Made by a program: the position numbers and the translations under genes. 64,000 nt of DNA from Pseudobdellovibrionaceae bacterium (GTDB lineage Bacteria; Bdellovibrionota; Bdellovibrionia; Bdellovibrionales; Bdellovibrionaceae), in the NCBI GenBank assembly GCA_019637915.1, contig JAHBUV010000001.1, forward strand, positions 1,892,565 through 1,956,564, given 5' to 3'. How positions within the stretch are numbered: the stretch's first letter is position 1; every line of letters starts with the position of its first letter. Shown piece by piece: positions 55,802 to 62,755 of the stretch. The notes under the pieces are model-generated. The model was not told the DNA's origin. It ran no database searches and worked only from the letters and a program-made list of their open reading frames with translations.

Positions 55802-56572
55802 ATGAAACCAAAGGCCTTCGAGTTGCGTCGGGTGGGAGTCGCGTTTGACGGGCGGAGCGTCTTGCGCGACGTCACCCTGGATGTCGGCGAAGGGGAGTGT
55901 TTGGTTCTGATCGGACCCAGCGGTCAAGGCAAGACCACTTTGCTGAAAACAATGGCAGGATTGATTGCTCCCCAAGACGGTGAAATCACTGTTCGAAATC
56001 AGAATTTTTTGAAAATGGATGCCACTGAGCGTCTCAATCTTTTGAAGCGCATGGGGATGCTTTTTCAGCGCAATGCCCTGTTTGACTCGATGACTTGCGC
56101 GGAGAACGTGGCTTTCCCTTTGCGTGAAACCACCGACGGGGACGAGGCGTGGATCGGGGACAAAGTGGAGCAATTCCTCGAGGCCGTCGGACTGTCCCAA
56201 GCCCGGGATTTGTACCCGGATGAGATCAGCGGCGGCATGCAAAAGCGCCTGGGCATCGCCCGGGCCCTGGCGCTCAGCCCGGAAATCATTTTTTACGACG
56301 ATCCGACGGCGGGACTGGATCCGATCACGTCGCGCAAAATTGTTGAGCTGATCCAGCGCCTGCGACATGAACAAAACAGCACCGTGATCGCGGTGACAAA
56401 CGACATGAACCGGGCTTATCAAATGGCCGATCGCCTGGCGCTGGTGGCGGACGGCGGGGTGCTGGTCACGGGCTCCGTCGAGGAAACAAAACGACATCCG
56501 GACCCGCGCGTGCGACAATTCATCCATGGATCCGTTGAAGGGCCTTTAAGTCCGGTTTCAGGAGGCGGCTGA
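55802..56572 (+). CDS. MlaF-type ABC ATPase with degenerate catalytic residues (subunit 1)
   Basis: 256 residues. Walker A GPSGQGKTT (38-46), canonical signature ISGGMQKRLG (142-151), but Walker B reads IIFYDDPTAGLD, with Asp167 where the catalytic Glu should be, and the H-loop has Asn200 (VTNDM) in place of His. The overall match is to MlaF/Ttg2A of retrograde lipid transport. Combined with the second ATPase at 58946, which keeps Glu and His but has an altered signature, it would form an asymmetric dimer. First gene of the operon, with GGAG at 55794. Confidence 0.9.
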   Translation: MKPKAFELRRVGVAFDGRSVLRDVTLDVGEGECLVLIGPSGQGKTTLLKTMAGLIAPQDGEITVRNQNFLKMDATERLNLLKRMGMLFQRNALFDSMTCAENVAFPLRETTDGDEAWIGDKVEQFLEAVGLSQARDLYPDEISGGMQKRLGIARALALSPEIIFYDDPTAGLDPITSRKIVELIQRLRHEQNSTVIAVTNDMNRAYQMADRLALVADGGVLVTGSVEETKRHPDPRVRQFIHGSVEGPLSPVSGGG

Positions 56573-57567
56573 TGAGCGCAAAGAGTCTTCGCACGTTGAT
56601 GATCGTTCTCGGCGCGGTGGTGGTGCTGCCCGTCGTTCTTTTCGCCATGCTGCGGATCGTGAACGGCTTCGATCAACGGCTGAAACCGGAAGTGCGGAGA
56701 ATCCTCGACGAGGAAAAACCGCTGACGGGCGCCCAGTCGGCGGCTTTGGCGGAGATCCAAAAAACGCCCTTGTGCGAAGAGGAAGAACTCAGCGATGCGC
56801 AAATGGCGGTCTTGCTGGAGCGGCTGGACGGCGCCGCTTTGTATGAATCGTTGCACGCGGAAAAGGAAGGCATGCTCTTCACGCGCTGCCTGACCCGTTT
56901 GATCCGCACGGAAAACGGCGTGGATTTTCTTTCCGGAGTCGAAAACCTGTCGCGCAAGAATCCCGCCCTCGCGGTCGGGCGCCTGAAACGCTACATTCAT
57001 TTCCTTCTGAAAACCGCGGACGAAGGGCAAACCTTGCTGGCCCGGAGCATGGCCGTGGGACAGCTGGTGCCGGCGGTGGAAAAAGCGCAGGCCTGGGCGA
57101 AAAGGACCCCGCGCCTGTCGGGCGCTCTGCCGACGGCCGAAGTCACGGCGTTCGTGAACAGGGACCTTGGCGATTTCCTCAGGTCCGTTCGGGACAACGA
57201 AATGCGTTTGAGCCGCCACTGGTTGTCGCAATTGCCGAACCCGCGCTGGTTTTTGATCACCAACCTCCATTCCGATCAGGTCACCGCGCTGGAGGATCTT
57301 TTCGGGCGCGTCACGGCGCCCTTGTACCAGCCCAACCGCACTCTGAACGGCCTTTATGACCGCTGGAACGACACCATCGGGCTGACCGTGAAATGCGTGG
57401 CGGAAAACAGTTGCGTCGAGAGCGAGGCCGAAAGCCTCGGCGTCCTGGATTACGTGGTCAATCCCATCGGGGCGCATTTGCTGCGTTTGATGTCGCCCAA
57501 GACGTACAAGGCGGCCGAAAAGATCGAGGAGAGCCGGGCGAAAATCCGGTCTTTGCTCGCGGCCTGA
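56572..57567 (+). CDS. Membrane-anchored protein of unknown function in the Mla operon
   Basis: 331 residues. A single N-terminal helix (LMIVLGAVVVLPVVLFAMLR) after a few basic residues, so the rest is likely periplasmic and is mostly alpha-helical. Cysteines near positions 66, 107 and around 285-292 (VKCVAENSCVESE) could form disulfides. Stop and start share one base with the ATPase gene (TGATG), which argues for tight co-expression. It resembles no MlaB/C/D protein I can recognise. Its spacing, with only 40 bases to the next gene, suggests a subunit or partner of the transporter. Confidence 0.75.
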   Translation: MSAKSLRTLMIVLGAVVVLPVVLFAMLRIVNGFDQRLKPEVRRILDEEKPLTGAQSAALAEIQKTPLCEEEELSDAQMAVLLERLDGAALYESLHAEKEGMLFTRCLTRLIRTENGVDFLSGVENLSRKNPALAVGRLKRYIHFLLKTADEGQTLLARSMAVGQLVPAVEKAQAWAKRTPRLSGALPTAEVTAFVNRDLGDFLRSVRDNEMRLSRHWLSQLPNPRWFLITNLHSDQVTALEDLFGRVTAPLYQPNRTLNGLYDRWNDTIGLTVKCVAENSCVESEAESLGVLDYVVNPIGAHLLRLMSPKTYKAAEKIEESRAKIRSLLAA

Positions 57568-57607
57568 GAGTTGCATTCCGTGTGGTGTGGCTCGCCAAGG
57601 GGGGGGT

Positions 57608-58924
57608 ATGATGGCTTTTTTCGGTGTCATTTTGACCGTTTTTTTCTCAACGGCGGGTTTCGCCGCCACTCCGATGGAAAAAGCCATCGAGGCTTTGACG
57701 CCCCCGCCGTCCGGGGGGATCGTCACGGAACGCGTTTCCGGGGTGGACCTGCATTTTTTCTCTGAAATCGCGGAAGTCCTGCAGGCTTTGTCCCGCAAAG
57801 ATCCGCGGGAACCCGCGGAAAAAACGACCTCCCTGTGCGCGCGGGACCTGCGCTTGAACGAGGACCTGGCGCGCGCTTGTCCCGCTCTCGCGAAAAACAT
57901 CGAGGAATTGCGCGCGACCGCTGAATCCTGCCGGGACATGGAGGATCCCCTGCGGATTTACACCCGTCTGCCGGCCGGGGAACCGTCCGCCGAAGCTTTG
58001 GCGAAGGTGGAGGGGATTCTGGAAACGGTTTTGGTGCTGGCCACGAAAGTCAGCTGGCCCGACGCCCTTCAGAAAAGGGTCTGGGAGCAGCGGCTCCGGA
58101 ATCTGATCCTGAAAATCAGGCATCATGATCTGAACCAGTCGCTCCTGGCCCGCTCCCAGGTCCTGGCGCGCCTCCAAAGCGCGGTGAGCGTTTGCGAAGA
58201 TCAGGCCTGGGCGGGCAGAGTGTCGGCGGCGCAGCGGGATCTGCGCGCTCTGGCGAACCAGTGGGAGCATTTTCAATTTCTCTCCAAGCGCCAGGCACAA
58301 GCCGACGCGGAAGCGGTTCATCGCGCCGGTCGGGGGCGCGAGGCCATGCCCTATCCGATGCTGTCGGACCGGGACCGCGAATACTTTTCCGCGCTGTTCG
58401 GCGCGGTTTTGTGGCGCTTCCGCGGCGGCGGCGGTTACCTGCCGGACACCGGGCCCGATGAGACCCGCACCAACGAGCGGCGCTACTACTTCGTGCTCCA
58501 ACCCATGCGCGCCTTCGCCGAACTCAACGGCGCGAAATCCTACGGGACGGAAATTTCCATCGCCATGGGTTTAGGGCTCCTGAAGGGTTGGGGGCAGTGG
58601 CACGATATGGGCCGCCATCCCGGCGAAGACAAGTACTCCGATCACCGCAACATGGTGTCGCGCGGGGAGTACCAGCTGAGCTACGTGAAAAGACGCCTCA
58701 CGTGGGCGGGCTACAAAACCGGTTTCCTGCGCTTGGCGGGACCGCAAATGGGCCACTGTTATTTCTACGCGTGGGAAGCGATGGATGACGATATCCGCAT
58801 CGGTCTCGAGCTGGGGCCCCCGCACCACCAACCCATCTCGGGGGGGCCCACGAACATCGGCGAGTTCTGCACGGGCGCGGCGATGACTTTGGGCCTCGCG
58901 AAAACCCTGTTGCAGGGGCGCTGA
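57608..58924 (+). CDS. Exported protein of unknown function in the Mla operon
   Basis: 438 residues with a signal peptide (MMAFFGVILTVFFSTAGFAA) and no further membrane segment, so probably periplasmic. The N-terminal half is helical; the C-terminal half is richer in aromatic and Gly residues and contains potential metal-ligand clusters (GQWHDMGRHPGEDKYSDHRN; GPQMGHCYFYAWEAMDD; LGPPHHQPISGGPTN). The His/Asp/Glu arrangement looks enzymatic, but I cannot name a family. ATG at 57608 follows a run of G at 57599-57606. Confidence 0.75.
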   Translation: MMAFFGVILTVFFSTAGFAATPMEKAIEALTPPPSGGIVTERVSGVDLHFFSEIAEVLQALSRKDPREPAEKTTSLCARDLRLNEDLARACPALAKNIEELRATAESCRDMEDPLRIYTRLPAGEPSAEALAKVEGILETVLVLATKVSWPDALQKRVWEQRLRNLILKIRHHDLNQSLLARSQVLARLQSAVSVCEDQAWAGRVSAAQRDLRALANQWEHFQFLSKRQAQADAEAVHRAGRGREAMPYPMLSDRDREYFSALFGAVLWRFRGGGGYLPDTGPDETRTNERRYYFVLQPMRAFAELNGAKSYGTEISIAMGLGLLKGWGQWHDMGRHPGEDKYSDHRNMVSRGEYQLSYVKRRLTWAGYKTGFLRLAGPQMGHCYFYAWEAMDDDIRIGLELGPPHHQPISGGPTNIGEFCTGAAMTLGLAKTLLQGR

Positions 58925-58945
58925 ACATCGTGATCAGATCCAGGT

Positions 58946-59674
58946 GTGATCGAATATCGCGGCCTGGTGAAACGTTTCGGTGATCGCACGGTCCTGAAGG
59001 GCTTGAATCTGCGGATCAGCGAAGGGGAAATCGTCTTCGTGCTGGGAACCTCCGGCACGGGGAAGTCGGTGCTTCTGAAGAACACCGTGGGGCTTCTGCG
59101 GCCCGATGAGGGTGAAATCTGGATCGATGGCCGCGAGGTCTCGCGCCTGTCCGAGGAAGAGTACCTCGGGGTCCGCCGCATCTGCGGCATGGTTTTTCAG
59201 CACCCCGCTCTGTTCGATTCCCTGAGCGTGTACGAGAACGTGGCTTTCGGTTTGCGCCGCCACGACCGGCTGCCCGAGGAGTTGATCCGTCAAAAAGTCG
59301 CCGAGGCCCTGGCGCTGGTCCATCTGCCGGGGGTGGAGGAACGGCGGCCGGCGCAGCTGTCTTACGGCATGCAAAAGCGCGTGAGCCTGGCCCGCACGCT
59401 GGCTCTGGAGCCGAAAATCCTGCTGTTCGACGAGCCGACCACCGCCCTTGATCCCATCACCACCACGGCGGTGAACAACCTGATTCAAGAGCTCTCACGC
59501 CGCCTGCGCACGACCTCCATCGTCGTCAGTCACGATATGATCTGCGCCCTGGGCATCGCCGACCGCATCGTGGTTCTGGACCAGGGGAACATCGTCGCGC
59601 AAGGCACGCCCCGGGAAATCCGCGGCAGCGAGGTGCCCCTGGTTCAGGATTTCCTGGCCGAGGTGCCGGCGTGA
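58946..59674 (+). CDS. MlaF-type ABC ATPase with altered signature motif (subunit 2)
   Basis: 242 residues. Walker A GTSGTGKSV (34-42), Walker B LLFDEPTTALD with Asp162-Glu163 and H-loop His196 (VSHDM) are all canonical, but the signature is LSYGMQKRVS (138-147) with Tyr for the usual Gly. It is the mirror image of subunit 1. Start GTG at 58946; no strong ribosome binding site. Overlaps the permease gene by 4 bases. Confidence 0.92.
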   Translation: MIEYRGLVKRFGDRTVLKGLNLRISEGEIVFVLGTSGTGKSVLLKNTVGLLRPDEGEIWIDGREVSRLSEEEYLGVRRICGMVFQHPALFDSLSVYENVAFGLRRHDRLPEELIRQKVAEALALVHLPGVEERRPAQLSYGMQKRVSLARTLALEPKILLFDEPTTALDPITTTAVNNLIQELSRRLRTTSIVVSHDMICALGIADRIVVLDQGNIVAQGTPREIRGSEVPLVQDFLAEVPA

Positions 59675-60444
59675 ACCACCTCGCGCACGCCATCGACGAG
59701 ATCGGCCGGACCACGATGTTTTTCGCGGCGTTGCTGAAGACGATGTTCCGGCGCCCGAGCCGCTTCGGCGATGTCGTCGATCAGACCTGGAACGTCACCC
59801 TGCAGAGCCTGCCGACGACGGCCATGGCCGGTTTTTTCGTCGGCGCCATCATGGCGGTGCAATTCACCATGCAGATGCGCGACTTCGGGGCTCTGGGGTA
59901 CCTGGGGGGCCTTGCCACCAGCGGCACGCTGCGGGAGGTGGGGCCTCTGTTGATCGCCTTCATGTTGAGCGGCAAGGTCGGGGCCTACACCTCGGCGGAG
60001 CTGGGAACCATGCGCGTGACGGAGCAGATCGATGCCGTCCGCTGTCTGGGCGCGGATCCCCTCCAGGAGCTGATCGTGCCGCGCTTTTTGGGCATCGTGA
60101 TCTCTTCGTCTTTGCTGCTCGGCGCGGGGCTTCTGATGTCGGTTCTGGGGGGCATGACGCTCGGGCATCTGTTCGCCCATGTGTCCCCGGAAGAATACGT
60201 GCGCCACATCCCCACGATCCTGACCTGGCCTTCCATCCTGATCGGCTTCGCGAAGTGCGCGGTTTTCGCCGTGGTCCTGGCGACGATCTGCACTTACCGC
60301 GGTTACTCCGCCACGGGCGGCGCGAAAGGCGTCGGCCGCGCGGTCGTGACGACGGCGGTGTCGACCATGATGTGCCTGGTGGTGATGGATTGGGTGACGA
60401 GCTATCTCGCTGAAGCCGTCATGACCCTGGCGCGGGGGCCGTGA
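59671..60444 (+). CDS. mlaE: MlaE-family permease (subunit 1)
   Basis: 257 residues, about six hydrophobic segments. The MlaE core is clear: LREVGPLLIAFMLSGKVGAY and AELGTMRVTEQIDAVRCLGA followed by DPLQELIVPRFLG. GTG start inside the ATPase stop. Works with an MCE protein and ATPase to move phospholipids between inner membrane and periplasmic carriers in the described Mla system. Confidence 0.94.
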   Translation: MNHLAHAIDEIGRTTMFFAALLKTMFRRPSRFGDVVDQTWNVTLQSLPTTAMAGFFVGAIMAVQFTMQMRDFGALGYLGGLATSGTLREVGPLLIAFMLSGKVGAYTSAELGTMRVTEQIDAVRCLGADPLQELIVPRFLGIVISSSLLLGAGLLMSVLGGMTLGHLFAHVSPEEYVRHIPTILTWPSILIGFAKCAVFAVVLATICTYRGYSATGGAKGVGRAVVTTAVSTMMCLVVMDWVTSYLAEAVMTLARGP

Positions 60445-61122
60445 TTGAAGTCCCTGCGCTGGAAGGAAACCCTGCAACAGCTTTTTTTCGTCGCCAACGG
60501 CAGCGGGTTCATTGTGGTCTTTTGCGTGTGTTTCGCCGCCATGGTGACCATTCTCGAGGCCTCTTTCCATATGAAGATGGTGATCCAGAACGATTCGATG
60601 GTGCCGGGTTTCGCGGCTCTTTTGATCTTGAAGGAACTGGGAGCCGTGGTGACGGCCCTGCTTTTGACCTCGCGCGTGGGGGCGGGCATCGCCGCCGAAG
60701 TGGGGCTGATGAAGGTCACGGAGCAGATCGACGCCCTTCGCATGCTGGGGATCGAGCCCGTGCGTTATCTGGTTCTGCCCCGGCTCGTGGCATGCGTGAT
60801 CGGCGCCGTTTTGCTGACGTTGATCGCCAACATGGTCTGCCTGATCTGCGCCATGCTGGTCAGCGATCTGATGCTGGGTTACAGCCCGGCGATGTTTCTT
60901 TCTTCCATGCGGATTTTCGTGAAGTTCCAGGACCTGCTTCTCGCGGCCGTGAAGGGGGCTTTTTTCGGCGCCGTCATCCCTCTGGTCGCCTGCCACTTCG
61001 GTTTCCGCTGCCGGCCCGGCGCGGAGGGAGTGGGGAGCGCCACCACTCAAAGCGTCGTGGTCGCCTCGATCCTCATCATTGTTCTGGATTTTGTTTTGTC
61101 CTATACTTTTTCGTATCTTTAG
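60445..61122 (+). CDS. Second MlaE-family permease (subunit 2)
   Basis: 225 residues. Same family: LKELGAVVTALLLTSRVGAG, AAEVGLMKVTEQIDALRMLG and IEPVRYLVLPRLVACVIG. It is shorter than the first copy at the N-terminus. The frame cannot begin earlier because the codon before TTG 60445 is the TGA of the preceding permease; translation would restart at that TTG with no spacer. Two different permeases suggest a heterodimer, as with YrbEA/YrbEB of actinobacterial Mce systems. Confidence 0.88.
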   Translation: MKSLRWKETLQQLFFVANGSGFIVVFCVCFAAMVTILEASFHMKMVIQNDSMVPGFAALLILKELGAVVTALLLTSRVGAGIAAEVGLMKVTEQIDALRMLGIEPVRYLVLPRLVACVIGAVLLTLIANMVCLICAMLVSDLMLGYSPAMFLSSMRIFVKFQDLLLAAVKGAFFGAVIPLVACHFGFRCRPGAEGVGSATTQSVVVASILIIVLDFVLSYTFSYL

Positions 61123-61143
61123 CCCCATGGAGGGAAGGCTCGA

Positions 61144-61920
61144 ATGAAAACGGAAACGAAGGTCGGTTTGTTGGCCCTGGCCGCTCTGATTCTCGTCCTG
61201 GTTTTCGCGTCCATGATGGGGTCCCTGTCGCCATTTTCCCGGGGGCGTTCTTTGGACGTGGTCTACAATTACGCCGGCGGCATCGACGAAGGATCCCCGG
61301 TGCGGGTGATGGGGATCAACGTCGGCAAGGTGCGCGCGATCCGTTTCGAGCCGGGCTTCAAAATGCCCGACGGGGAAGAGGTCAAATTGCGCCTGACGAT
61401 CAGCGTGGACCAAAAAGCCTGGTCGAGCATCCGCACGGACAGCCGTTTCTACATCAATATGGCCGGCGTGATCGGGGAGAAGTTCCTGGAAATCTCGCCG
61501 GGCTCCCTGGACCAGCCTGAATTCGCGGACGGCGCGGTGGTGCGGGGCGAAGATCCCCCGCGCGTCGACCAGCTGATCTCGCAAAGCTACGGTCTGGCCG
61601 GAAAACTGATCAACCTCCTGGAGAAAAACGAAGGCTCGGTGAGCAACGTCATCCAGCAGGTGGACCGCTTGACGACGAACTTCAACAAGACCCTCTCGCT
61701 CTTGGATAAAACGTCAAAAAATAAAGAAATGGCGCGTTTGCTCGACAACGCGATCAAGATCAGCGATGACATGGCTTACCTGACCGGTTCCCTGCGGTCG
61801 AAAAAAGCGGAAGAGTCGTATCATCTGATGCACAAGCTGCTTTTCCGCCTGGAACCGTTGGATGGTCCGGCCATCCGCAAGTTTCTGCAGGAAGAGGGCG
61901 TGCGCGCCCGGGTTTTTTAA
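61144..61920 (+). CDS. mlaD: MCE-domain protein MlaD
   Basis: 258 residues. N-terminal membrane helix (VGLLALAALILVLVFASMM), then one MCE domain (VVYNYAGGIDEGSPVRVMGI; NVGKVRAIRFEPGF; FYINMAGVIGEKFLEISPG), then a helical C-terminal region of about 110 residues. MCE proteins form hexameric rings that make a lipid channel. Only one MCE gene is here, so a homohexamer is expected. ATG at 61144 follows GGAAGGC. Confidence 0.93.
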   Translation: MKTETKVGLLALAALILVLVFASMMGSLSPFSRGRSLDVVYNYAGGIDEGSPVRVMGINVGKVRAIRFEPGFKMPDGEEVKLRLTISVDQKAWSSIRTDSRFYINMAGVIGEKFLEISPGSLDQPEFADGAVVRGEDPPRVDQLISQSYGLAGKLINLLEKNEGSVSNVIQQVDRLTTNFNKTLSLLDKTSKNKEMARLLDNAIKISDDMAYLTGSLRSKKAEESYHLMHKLLFRLEPLDGPAIRKFLQEEGVRARVF

Positions 61921-61929
61921 GGAGGATGT

Positions 61930-62472
61930 ATGAATCGCATCGTTGGTTTTCTTCTGGCATGGGGCCTGGTTTGGACGGCGCAGGCCCAGGAATCGACTTA
62001 TTCGAACAACCTGAAAATGCGCGAAGACCGCCGTGTCGGCGTCGGCACCCAGGTCGGCGGCTCGGCGGGAATGATGGGCCTGCATGTCGAGTTGAACATC
62101 GAGGATCAAGACGGCGTGTTGGCGGGTTTCGGCCTCGGCGAGGGCTTTTCGACCTTCTCTTTGGCGTGGAAACACAACTTTGAGGGCGAGTTCTTCACCC
62201 CGTACACGACCATGGGCGTGTCCAGATGGTACAACTCGGCGGGAACATCCCCGGCGCGGTCCTATTTGTTGGACTCGCTCCTGACGGCCGAGGAAAAAAG
62301 CAGCGGCCGCTTCGGCGTCGACTTCCTCGTCGGTTCTTTGGGGGCTCAGTACAATCAGTTGGACGGCGAACTGGCGGGCGCGAGCTTCTTCGCTCAAGCC
62401 GATCTTTTCCTGGCGCCTTTCCGCGGTCAGGTCATGCCTTCGGCTTCGGTGGGCGTGACTTACTTCTTCTGA
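61930..62472 (+). CDS. Putative outer-membrane beta-barrel protein
   Basis: 180 residues with a signal peptide (MNRIVGFLLAWGLVWTAQAQ). The mature protein is a series of alternating, aromatic-bounded strands (FSTFSLAWKHNFEGEFFTPY; SFFAQADLFLAPFRGQVMPS) ending SVGVTYFF, the C-terminal Phe of Bam-assembled barrels. About eight strands are possible. Last gene of the Mla operon, 9 bases after mlaD, with GGAGG upstream. It may be the outer-membrane end of the lipid pathway. Confidence 0.75.
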   Translation: MNRIVGFLLAWGLVWTAQAQESTYSNNLKMREDRRVGVGTQVGGSAGMMGLHVELNIEDQDGVLAGFGLGEGFSTFSLAWKHNFEGEFFTPYTTMGVSRWYNSAGTSPARSYLLDSLLTAEEKSSGRFGVDFLVGSLGAQYNQLDGELAGASFFAQADLFLAPFRGQVMPSASVGVTYFF

Positions 62473-62559: not shown

Positions 62560-62586
62560 CCTAGATTCCAAAGAACCTAAGAAGAA

Positions 62587-62667
62587 CTACTTCTTCTTGG
62601 TGGTCTTTTTCTTCGTGGTTTTTTTAGCAGCCTTCTTGGTGGCTTTTTTCTTGGCTTTTTTGGCCAT
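62587..62667 (-). CDS. 26-residue lysine-rich (histone H1-like) protein
   Basis: Short reading frame on the - strand: ATG at 62667, TAG at 62587-62589, 26 codons. It encodes MAKKAKKKATKKAAKKTT and then eight more residues of Lys and Thr: in all 15 Lys, 5 Ala, 5 Thr and the initiator Met. Evidence that it is a gene: a perfect AGGAGGAG ribosome binding site 5 bases before the ATG, a strong terminator 27 bases after the stop, and a possible promoter at 62756-62784. Lys codons are a mix of AAA and AAG and other codons vary too, so this is not a simple nucleotide repeat. It resembles the tail of L21 in this window. Likely to bind nucleic acid. Confidence 0.8.
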   Translation of the reverse strand: MAKKAKKKATKKAAKKTTKKKTTKKK

Positions 62668-62755
62668 GGTAGCTCCTCCTGTTGTCGTTGTTTTGTTTCT
62701 CCAATTGCCCTTCTCAACAGAACAATCTTCGAAAACTGTTTTCCTCTTGCCTTTA

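Follow-up and report, generated by a model that had tools for sequence, protein, structure and literature searches.

The 64,000-nucleotide stretch of Pseudobdellovibrionaceae DNA analyzed here (the window) carries, on its + strand, a module of ATPase, permease and MCE genes that, judged from its sequence, very probably encodes an MCE-type lipid transporter of the ATP-binding cassette (ABC) class with a fully heterodimeric inner-membrane core, one canonical and one degenerate ATP site, and a ring of a single type of MCE protein. An initial annotation of the window had placed such a system at 55802-61920, and its five genes do lie at these coordinates, although the conserved unit runs on to a barrel gene at 61930-62472. 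The two ATPases, ATP1 (55802-56572) and ATP2 (58946-59674), share 39% identity, and because their NCBIfam MlaF scores (203 and 202 bits, respectively) are well under the equivalog cut-off of 441 they are MlaF-like but not orthologous to MlaF by that standard. The two MlaE-family permeases, E1 (59671-60444, PF02405 E=2.2e-60) and E2 (60445-61122, PF02405 E=1.5e-61), share 31% identity and fall into separate clades, so they are indeed two distinct proteins as the initial annotation had proposed, and there is one MCE protein, encoded by a single gene (61144-61920, PF02470 E=8.8e-16).

The same annotation had assigned complementary defects to the two ATPases, and these can be read directly from the codons. 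Both proteins have an undamaged Walker A motif. In ATP1, whose motifs in order are GPSGQGKT, ISGGM, FYDDP and VTNDM, Asp167 (codon GAT, 56300-56302) stands where the catalytic Glu would follow Walker B and Asn200 (AAC, 56399-56401) replaces the H-loop His, with a normal ISGGM signature. In ATP2 (GTSGTGKS, LSYGM, LFDEP and VSHDM) the catalytic residues Glu163 and His196 are canonical and the signature is degenerate, with Tyr140 (TAC, 59363-59365) at the second position of the SGG core. In an ABC dimer, each ATP site consists of the Walker A/B motifs and H-loop of one subunit and the signature of the other (PMC7756269). Pairing of ATP1 with ATP2 would thus place all of the defects in one site and leave the other whole, whereas self-pairing would spoil both sites of both dimers.

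We propose that the core is an ATP1-ATP2 dimer sitting on an E1-E2 permease pair and topped by a ring of the one MCE protein. The Walker motifs of ATP2 together with the ISGGM of ATP1 would form the canonical, hydrolyzing site, and those of ATP1 together with the LSYGM of ATP2 would form a site able to bind ATP and to hydrolyze it slowly or not at all. All human degenerate sites have a changed signature, Glu to Asp is the second commonest change, H-loop changes are often joined to it, and the degenerate site has been suggested to act like glue by remaining closed on ATP (PMC7756269). We infer the assembly of such a complex, with hydrolysis at one site only, so that one ATP would be hydrolyzed per cycle and the degenerate site, as has been suggested for TAP-type exporters, would serve as a latch between the ATPases.

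The residue pattern on which this proposal depends is conserved well beyond the window. The surroundings of ATP1 relatives were gathered across the phylum, their genes were classed with profiles built from the first set, and loci in which ATP1, ATP2 and E1 were all present were counted as module loci (n=80). All 80 belong to the Bdellovibrionota (Bdellovibrio- and Bacteriovorax-type lineages, including B. bacteriovorus, whose strain kdesi, in the same family as the source of the window, has the same module adjoining mdh at locus L104), and the suggestion in the initial annotation that the system is lineage-specific is right at the phylum level. E2 is found in 79, the MCE gene in 73 and a recognizable barrel gene in 47 of these loci, where some of the absences are contig ends. 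The ATP2 signature position is occupied by Tyr in 76 loci and by Phe in the other four (Tyr or Phe in 80/80), the catalytic Glu of ATP2 is present in every locus, and its H-loop His is present in all 79 that are readable. The SGG signature and Walker A of ATP1 are kept in 79 of 79 readable loci, and the Walker A Lys is undamaged in both ATPases across the module loci. At the ATP1 H-loop position there are 75 Asn, four Ser and one His (non-His in 79/80), and after Walker B there are 64 Asp and 16 Glu. An ATP1 lacking the His is paired with a Tyr- or Phe-bearing ATP2 in 79 loci, while the remaining locus has Asp in ATP1. No locus has Glu and His together in ATP1, a combination in relatives that the initial annotation had named as telling against its reading. 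Nearly the whole set shares the SYG/SFG signature and the loss of the H-loop His, and it is the Glu/Asp position that is variable.

The variation is structured by lineage. The Glu-bearing ATP1 proteins all come from families that lie outside the class of the window and belong to a group including the Bacteriovoracaceae; two members of this group have Asp (loci L112 and L215). In the Bacteriovoracia, ATP1 mostly combines Glu with Asn, and ATP2 still has Tyr or Phe in each. A single module (L083 in genome G041; also L110) has an ATP1 with both Asp and the H-loop His, again with Tyr or Phe in ATP2, and this may be a natural half-way state or a reversion. On an ATP1 tree built without the two catalytic columns each of these positions needs at least three changes, whose direction we infer to be loss of His and Glu to Asp.

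Outside the phylum the ATPases are of the ordinary kind. Among the best non-phylum matches to the ATP1 profile, each of the 55 loci where a permease adjoins the ATPase has a single ATPase, a single permease and the SGG/E/H residues, in a control set that also includes L121, a Bdellovibrionales locus of the ordinary single-permease type, and with a search pattern that required SGGMQK or DDPTAGLD, so that the SGG part is partly built in and the E and H parts are not. With SGG/E/H and a single permease, these best outside matches are ordinary MlaF genes. Asp-bearing ATPases do occur outside the phylum, in Spirochaetes including Leptospiraceae (L135, L143 and L181) and, with Pro at the H-loop position, in Myxococcus/Corallococcus (L132 and L145), and none of these has a permease beside it. 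It could be argued that the substitutions are neutral drift, or annotation or assembly noise, in a transporter with two working symmetric sites, given that Asp for Glu is conservative and slow hydrolysis is possible. This is exceedingly unlikely, as the same positions are changed in a complementary manner across the phylum and in dozens of independent assemblies, and all of the 55 outside loci with a permease have Glu and His. Moreover, the catalytic Glu is important in the MlaF family, since the E170Q variant of E. coli MlaF gave no rescue (PMC7367683). With the residue pattern kept over 80 loci, we reject drift or sequencing noise.

Several lines of evidence suggest that ATP1 and ATP2, and likewise E1 and E2, belong to one machine. 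Across 60 genomes, 45 have both ATPases (the ATP2 gene being partly masked in one of them), 14 have neither, and only one, an incomplete assembly, has ATP2 without ATP1; the 14 genomes that lack both are spread over several families, so the losses look repeated. The gap between the ATP1 and ATP2 genes is at most 100 base pairs in 71 of the 80 module loci, and the genes overlap in 58. In quick tree searches without bootstrap, whose support values are to be taken cautiously, ATP2 forms one clade (99) among ordinary MlaF proteins, a branch with a value of 99 separates these from ATP1 and its orphan relatives, and E1 and E2 each form one clade (100), within which the main lineages are arranged in the same order. 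In genome G042, ATP1 is on a different contig from ATP2-E1-E2-MCE-barrel, and both parts are kept, with ATP1 still having Asp and Asn. At L061 / L107 (6980-11476), the displaced ATP1 of this genome precedes two large genes resembling those of ABC exporters (625 and 632 amino acids), whose products are perhaps themselves a heterodimer.

The subunits also diverge in pairs. The correlation of distances over 71 loci, corrected for the other subunits, is 0.67 for ATP1-ATP2 and 0.77 for E1-E2, and at most 0.24 for the cross pairs. With a paralogous MlaF from 29 genomes as a control, the values are 0.61 for ATP1-ATP2, 0.37 for ATP1-control and -0.16 for ATP2-control, and the ATP1-ATP2 pair beats the control in 95% of subsamples. 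Such paired divergence would be unexpected for two unrelated homodimers, yet it is not proof of contact. The module might, in principle, encode two separate homodimeric transporters, an ATP1 pair on one permease pair and an ATP2 pair on the other, with the MCE protein shared between them. Each ATPase does have Walker A and a complete ABC domain, and structural studies describe both MlaF (PMC7367683) and MceG (PMC9882608) as homodimers. In all 80 loci, however, neither catalytic site of an ATP1 homodimer would be fully canonical and an ATP2 homodimer would lack a canonical signature, and such an arrangement does not fit with the complementary nature of the defects, the joint loss of ATP1 and ATP2, or a paired divergence that favors ATP1-ATP2 and E1-E2. 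We consider it very unlikely.

A second arrangement would keep the heterodimeric permeases but drive them with an ATP2 homodimer, leaving ATP1 as a regulatory or assembly subunit, like MlaB or a spare ATPase. Several Bdellovibrionota have orphan ATP1-like ATPases (L072, L073, L077, L084, L089 and L094) with Asp and with the His mostly retained, and no permease was found near them; the permease-less relatives at the first five of these loci indicate that this branch can have other roles. ATP1 is also the fastest evolving of the five subunits, with a mean distance of 0.80 versus 0.56 for ATP2, and it is sometimes unlinked from the rest of the module (L061/L288 and L091). Nevertheless, in an ATP2 homodimer the LSYGM signature would have to serve at both sites, and a purely regulatory subunit would not need the SGG signature and Walker A that ATP1 always keeps, which makes this arrangement improbable. 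Gene order and overlap, co-occurrence, the subunit clades, paired divergence and the retention of both parts in G042 instead support one heterodimeric MlaEF core, as the initial annotation had proposed. Some observations weigh against that core or its degenerate site, in addition to the caution due to the quick trees. Correlated divergence may partly reflect a shared protein class, of which the paralogous MlaF control removes only some, the ATP1-control value still being 0.37. ATP1 has Glu in 16 of the 80 loci, and there the site may be impaired but not dead. An Asp at the Glu position can still permit slow hydrolysis (PMC7756269), and the ATP1 of L083 carries the H-loop His.

E1 has a GTG start that overlaps the ATP2 stop, and E2 has a TTG start immediately after the E1 stop (TGA) in the same frame (60442-60447), with an N-terminus about 17 residues shorter than in relatives; readthrough or an assembly error is a possible origin of this junction. 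A promoter scan found no promoter. The two different permeases would form an asymmetric lipid pocket. The authors of the Mce1 study suggested that a permease heterodimer could aid the recognition of asymmetric substrates (PMC9882608), and by analogy E1-E2 could be suited to them as well. The MCE protein has a single MCE domain, is predicted to be membrane-anchored and has both the N-terminal anchor helix and the PF02470 domain that mark members of the MCE/MlaEFD group. In the structure model a helix (residues 3-27) is followed by the MCE strands and then by helices, in a C-terminal half whose low confidence is too weak to interpret. Its ring presumably contains six copies, as in MlaFEDB. Within its helical part, the MCE protein of strain kdesi (L104, 10062-10907) has a near-perfect 23-residue tandem duplication that appears as an alignment insert.

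The barrel gene that completes the module (61930-62472) encodes a predicted eight-stranded outer-membrane β-barrel with a signal-peptide-like start (mean pLDDT, the model's predicted local distance difference test score, 86), resembling OprF/OmpA barrels (E=7.5e-7). The MlaD protein of Veillonella bears its own outer-membrane barrel (PMC10665443), and the separate barrel protein here could, from its linkage, have a related role. Profile searches of the genome with PF05494 (MlaC) and PF04333 (MlaA) gave no match, while both proteins were detected in an E. coli control. The system is therefore distinct from the E. coli Mla pathway and is a minimal, MlaEFD-like one. None of the module genes encodes an MlaB STAS subunit, the search for MlaB being confined to the module. 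Family membership suggests that the system binds and moves lipids, which would pass via the MCE ring between the inner membrane and the periplasm or outer membrane, with no MlaA/MlaC and perhaps with the help of the small barrel. Of four further MCE-type loci in the genome, three are MlaE systems that each have a single permease and a single ATPase, and the fourth has two MCE domains and no match to a permease; only at 55802-62472 do two permeases and two ATPases occur together.

In nine loci, the window among them, ATP1 and ATP2 are farther apart, and the gap is here filled by two genes (56572-58924) for a 331-amino acid protein (56572-57567) and a predicted secreted 445-amino acid protein (57587-58924), both on the + strand and outside the conserved module. 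Neither has a homologue at the module in 59 relatives, although the C-terminal part of the 445-amino acid protein has a relative in one other genome (L256), at other places, and Pfam, NCBIfam and PHROG searches with both proteins gave no lead to their function. With their absence from the modules of relatives, we reject these two genes as parts of the system. A plasmid search using the locus gave no match. Just 3' of the module, a short, coding-like stretch rich in Lys and Ala and somewhat reminiscent of histone H1 lies on the minus strand (62580-62670).

The module combines features of several known systems. Like the MlaFEDB complexes (type VIII ABC lipid transporters) of E. coli, Acinetobacter and Pseudomonas, which include the closest solved relatives of ATP1, ATP2 and E2 and some of the closest of MCE, it has an MlaE-family permease, an MlaF-family ATPase and a single-domain MCE protein. 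Unlike them it has two different ATPases, two different permeases and one degenerate ATP site, in a genome without MlaA/MlaC, and the full C-terminal tail of MlaF is absent, as ATP1 aligns to MlaF residue 252 and ATP2 to residue 245 of 269. The mycobacterial Mce1 system (YrbE1A/YrbE1B, MceG) also has heterodimeric permeases of the same family, with YrbE1A the best solved match of E1, but its single ATPase, MceG, is present in two copies and its MCE proteins are of six different kinds (PMC9882608), in contrast to two ATPases and one MCE gene here. The Veillonella-type minimal MlaEFD resembles the module in working without MlaA/MlaC and in having an outer-membrane barrel element (PMC10665443), but the barrel is part of MlaD on a single MlaE and MlaF core rather than a separate, monomeric eight-stranded protein. 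The same split between Glu (often with the H-loop) and signature, giving one composite site, is found in the heterodimeric ABC exporters TAP1/TAP2, TM287/288, BmrCD and CFTR (PMC7756269). However, these exporters differ in transmembrane fold and function, and type I exporters of the TAP family have their transmembrane domains fused to the ATPase, while the module has separately encoded MlaE-type permeases and half-size ATPases. The likeness is therefore one of convergent mechanism and does not indicate membership.

Hence, neither the protein families nor the style of asymmetry is new, but to our knowledge their combination on an MlaE-type core has not been described. We found no published account of a Bdellovibrio Mla or MCE system in the open-access literature, where a report may have escaped us. 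A broader view, possible but doubtful, is that this is a phylum-wide ancestral, fully heterodimeric MCE transporter in which the degenerate site, acting as a latch, determines which way lipid flows and the small barrel provides a route free of MlaA/MlaC, perhaps tied to the predatory envelope biology of these bacteria. If our proposal is true, the module would be, as far as the literature we found goes, the first MlaE/MCE-class lipid transporter with a conserved degenerate ATP site, and the asymmetry of TAP and CFTR would have evolved again on a different transmembrane fold, with natural intermediates (Glu with Asn in the Bacteriovoracia, Asp with His in L083) that hint at the order of the steps. 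The direction and energy coupling of Mla transport are disputed in symmetric systems, where the two ATP sites are genetically indistinguishable, and a core of four different subunits would allow one site or one permease half to be mutated at a time.

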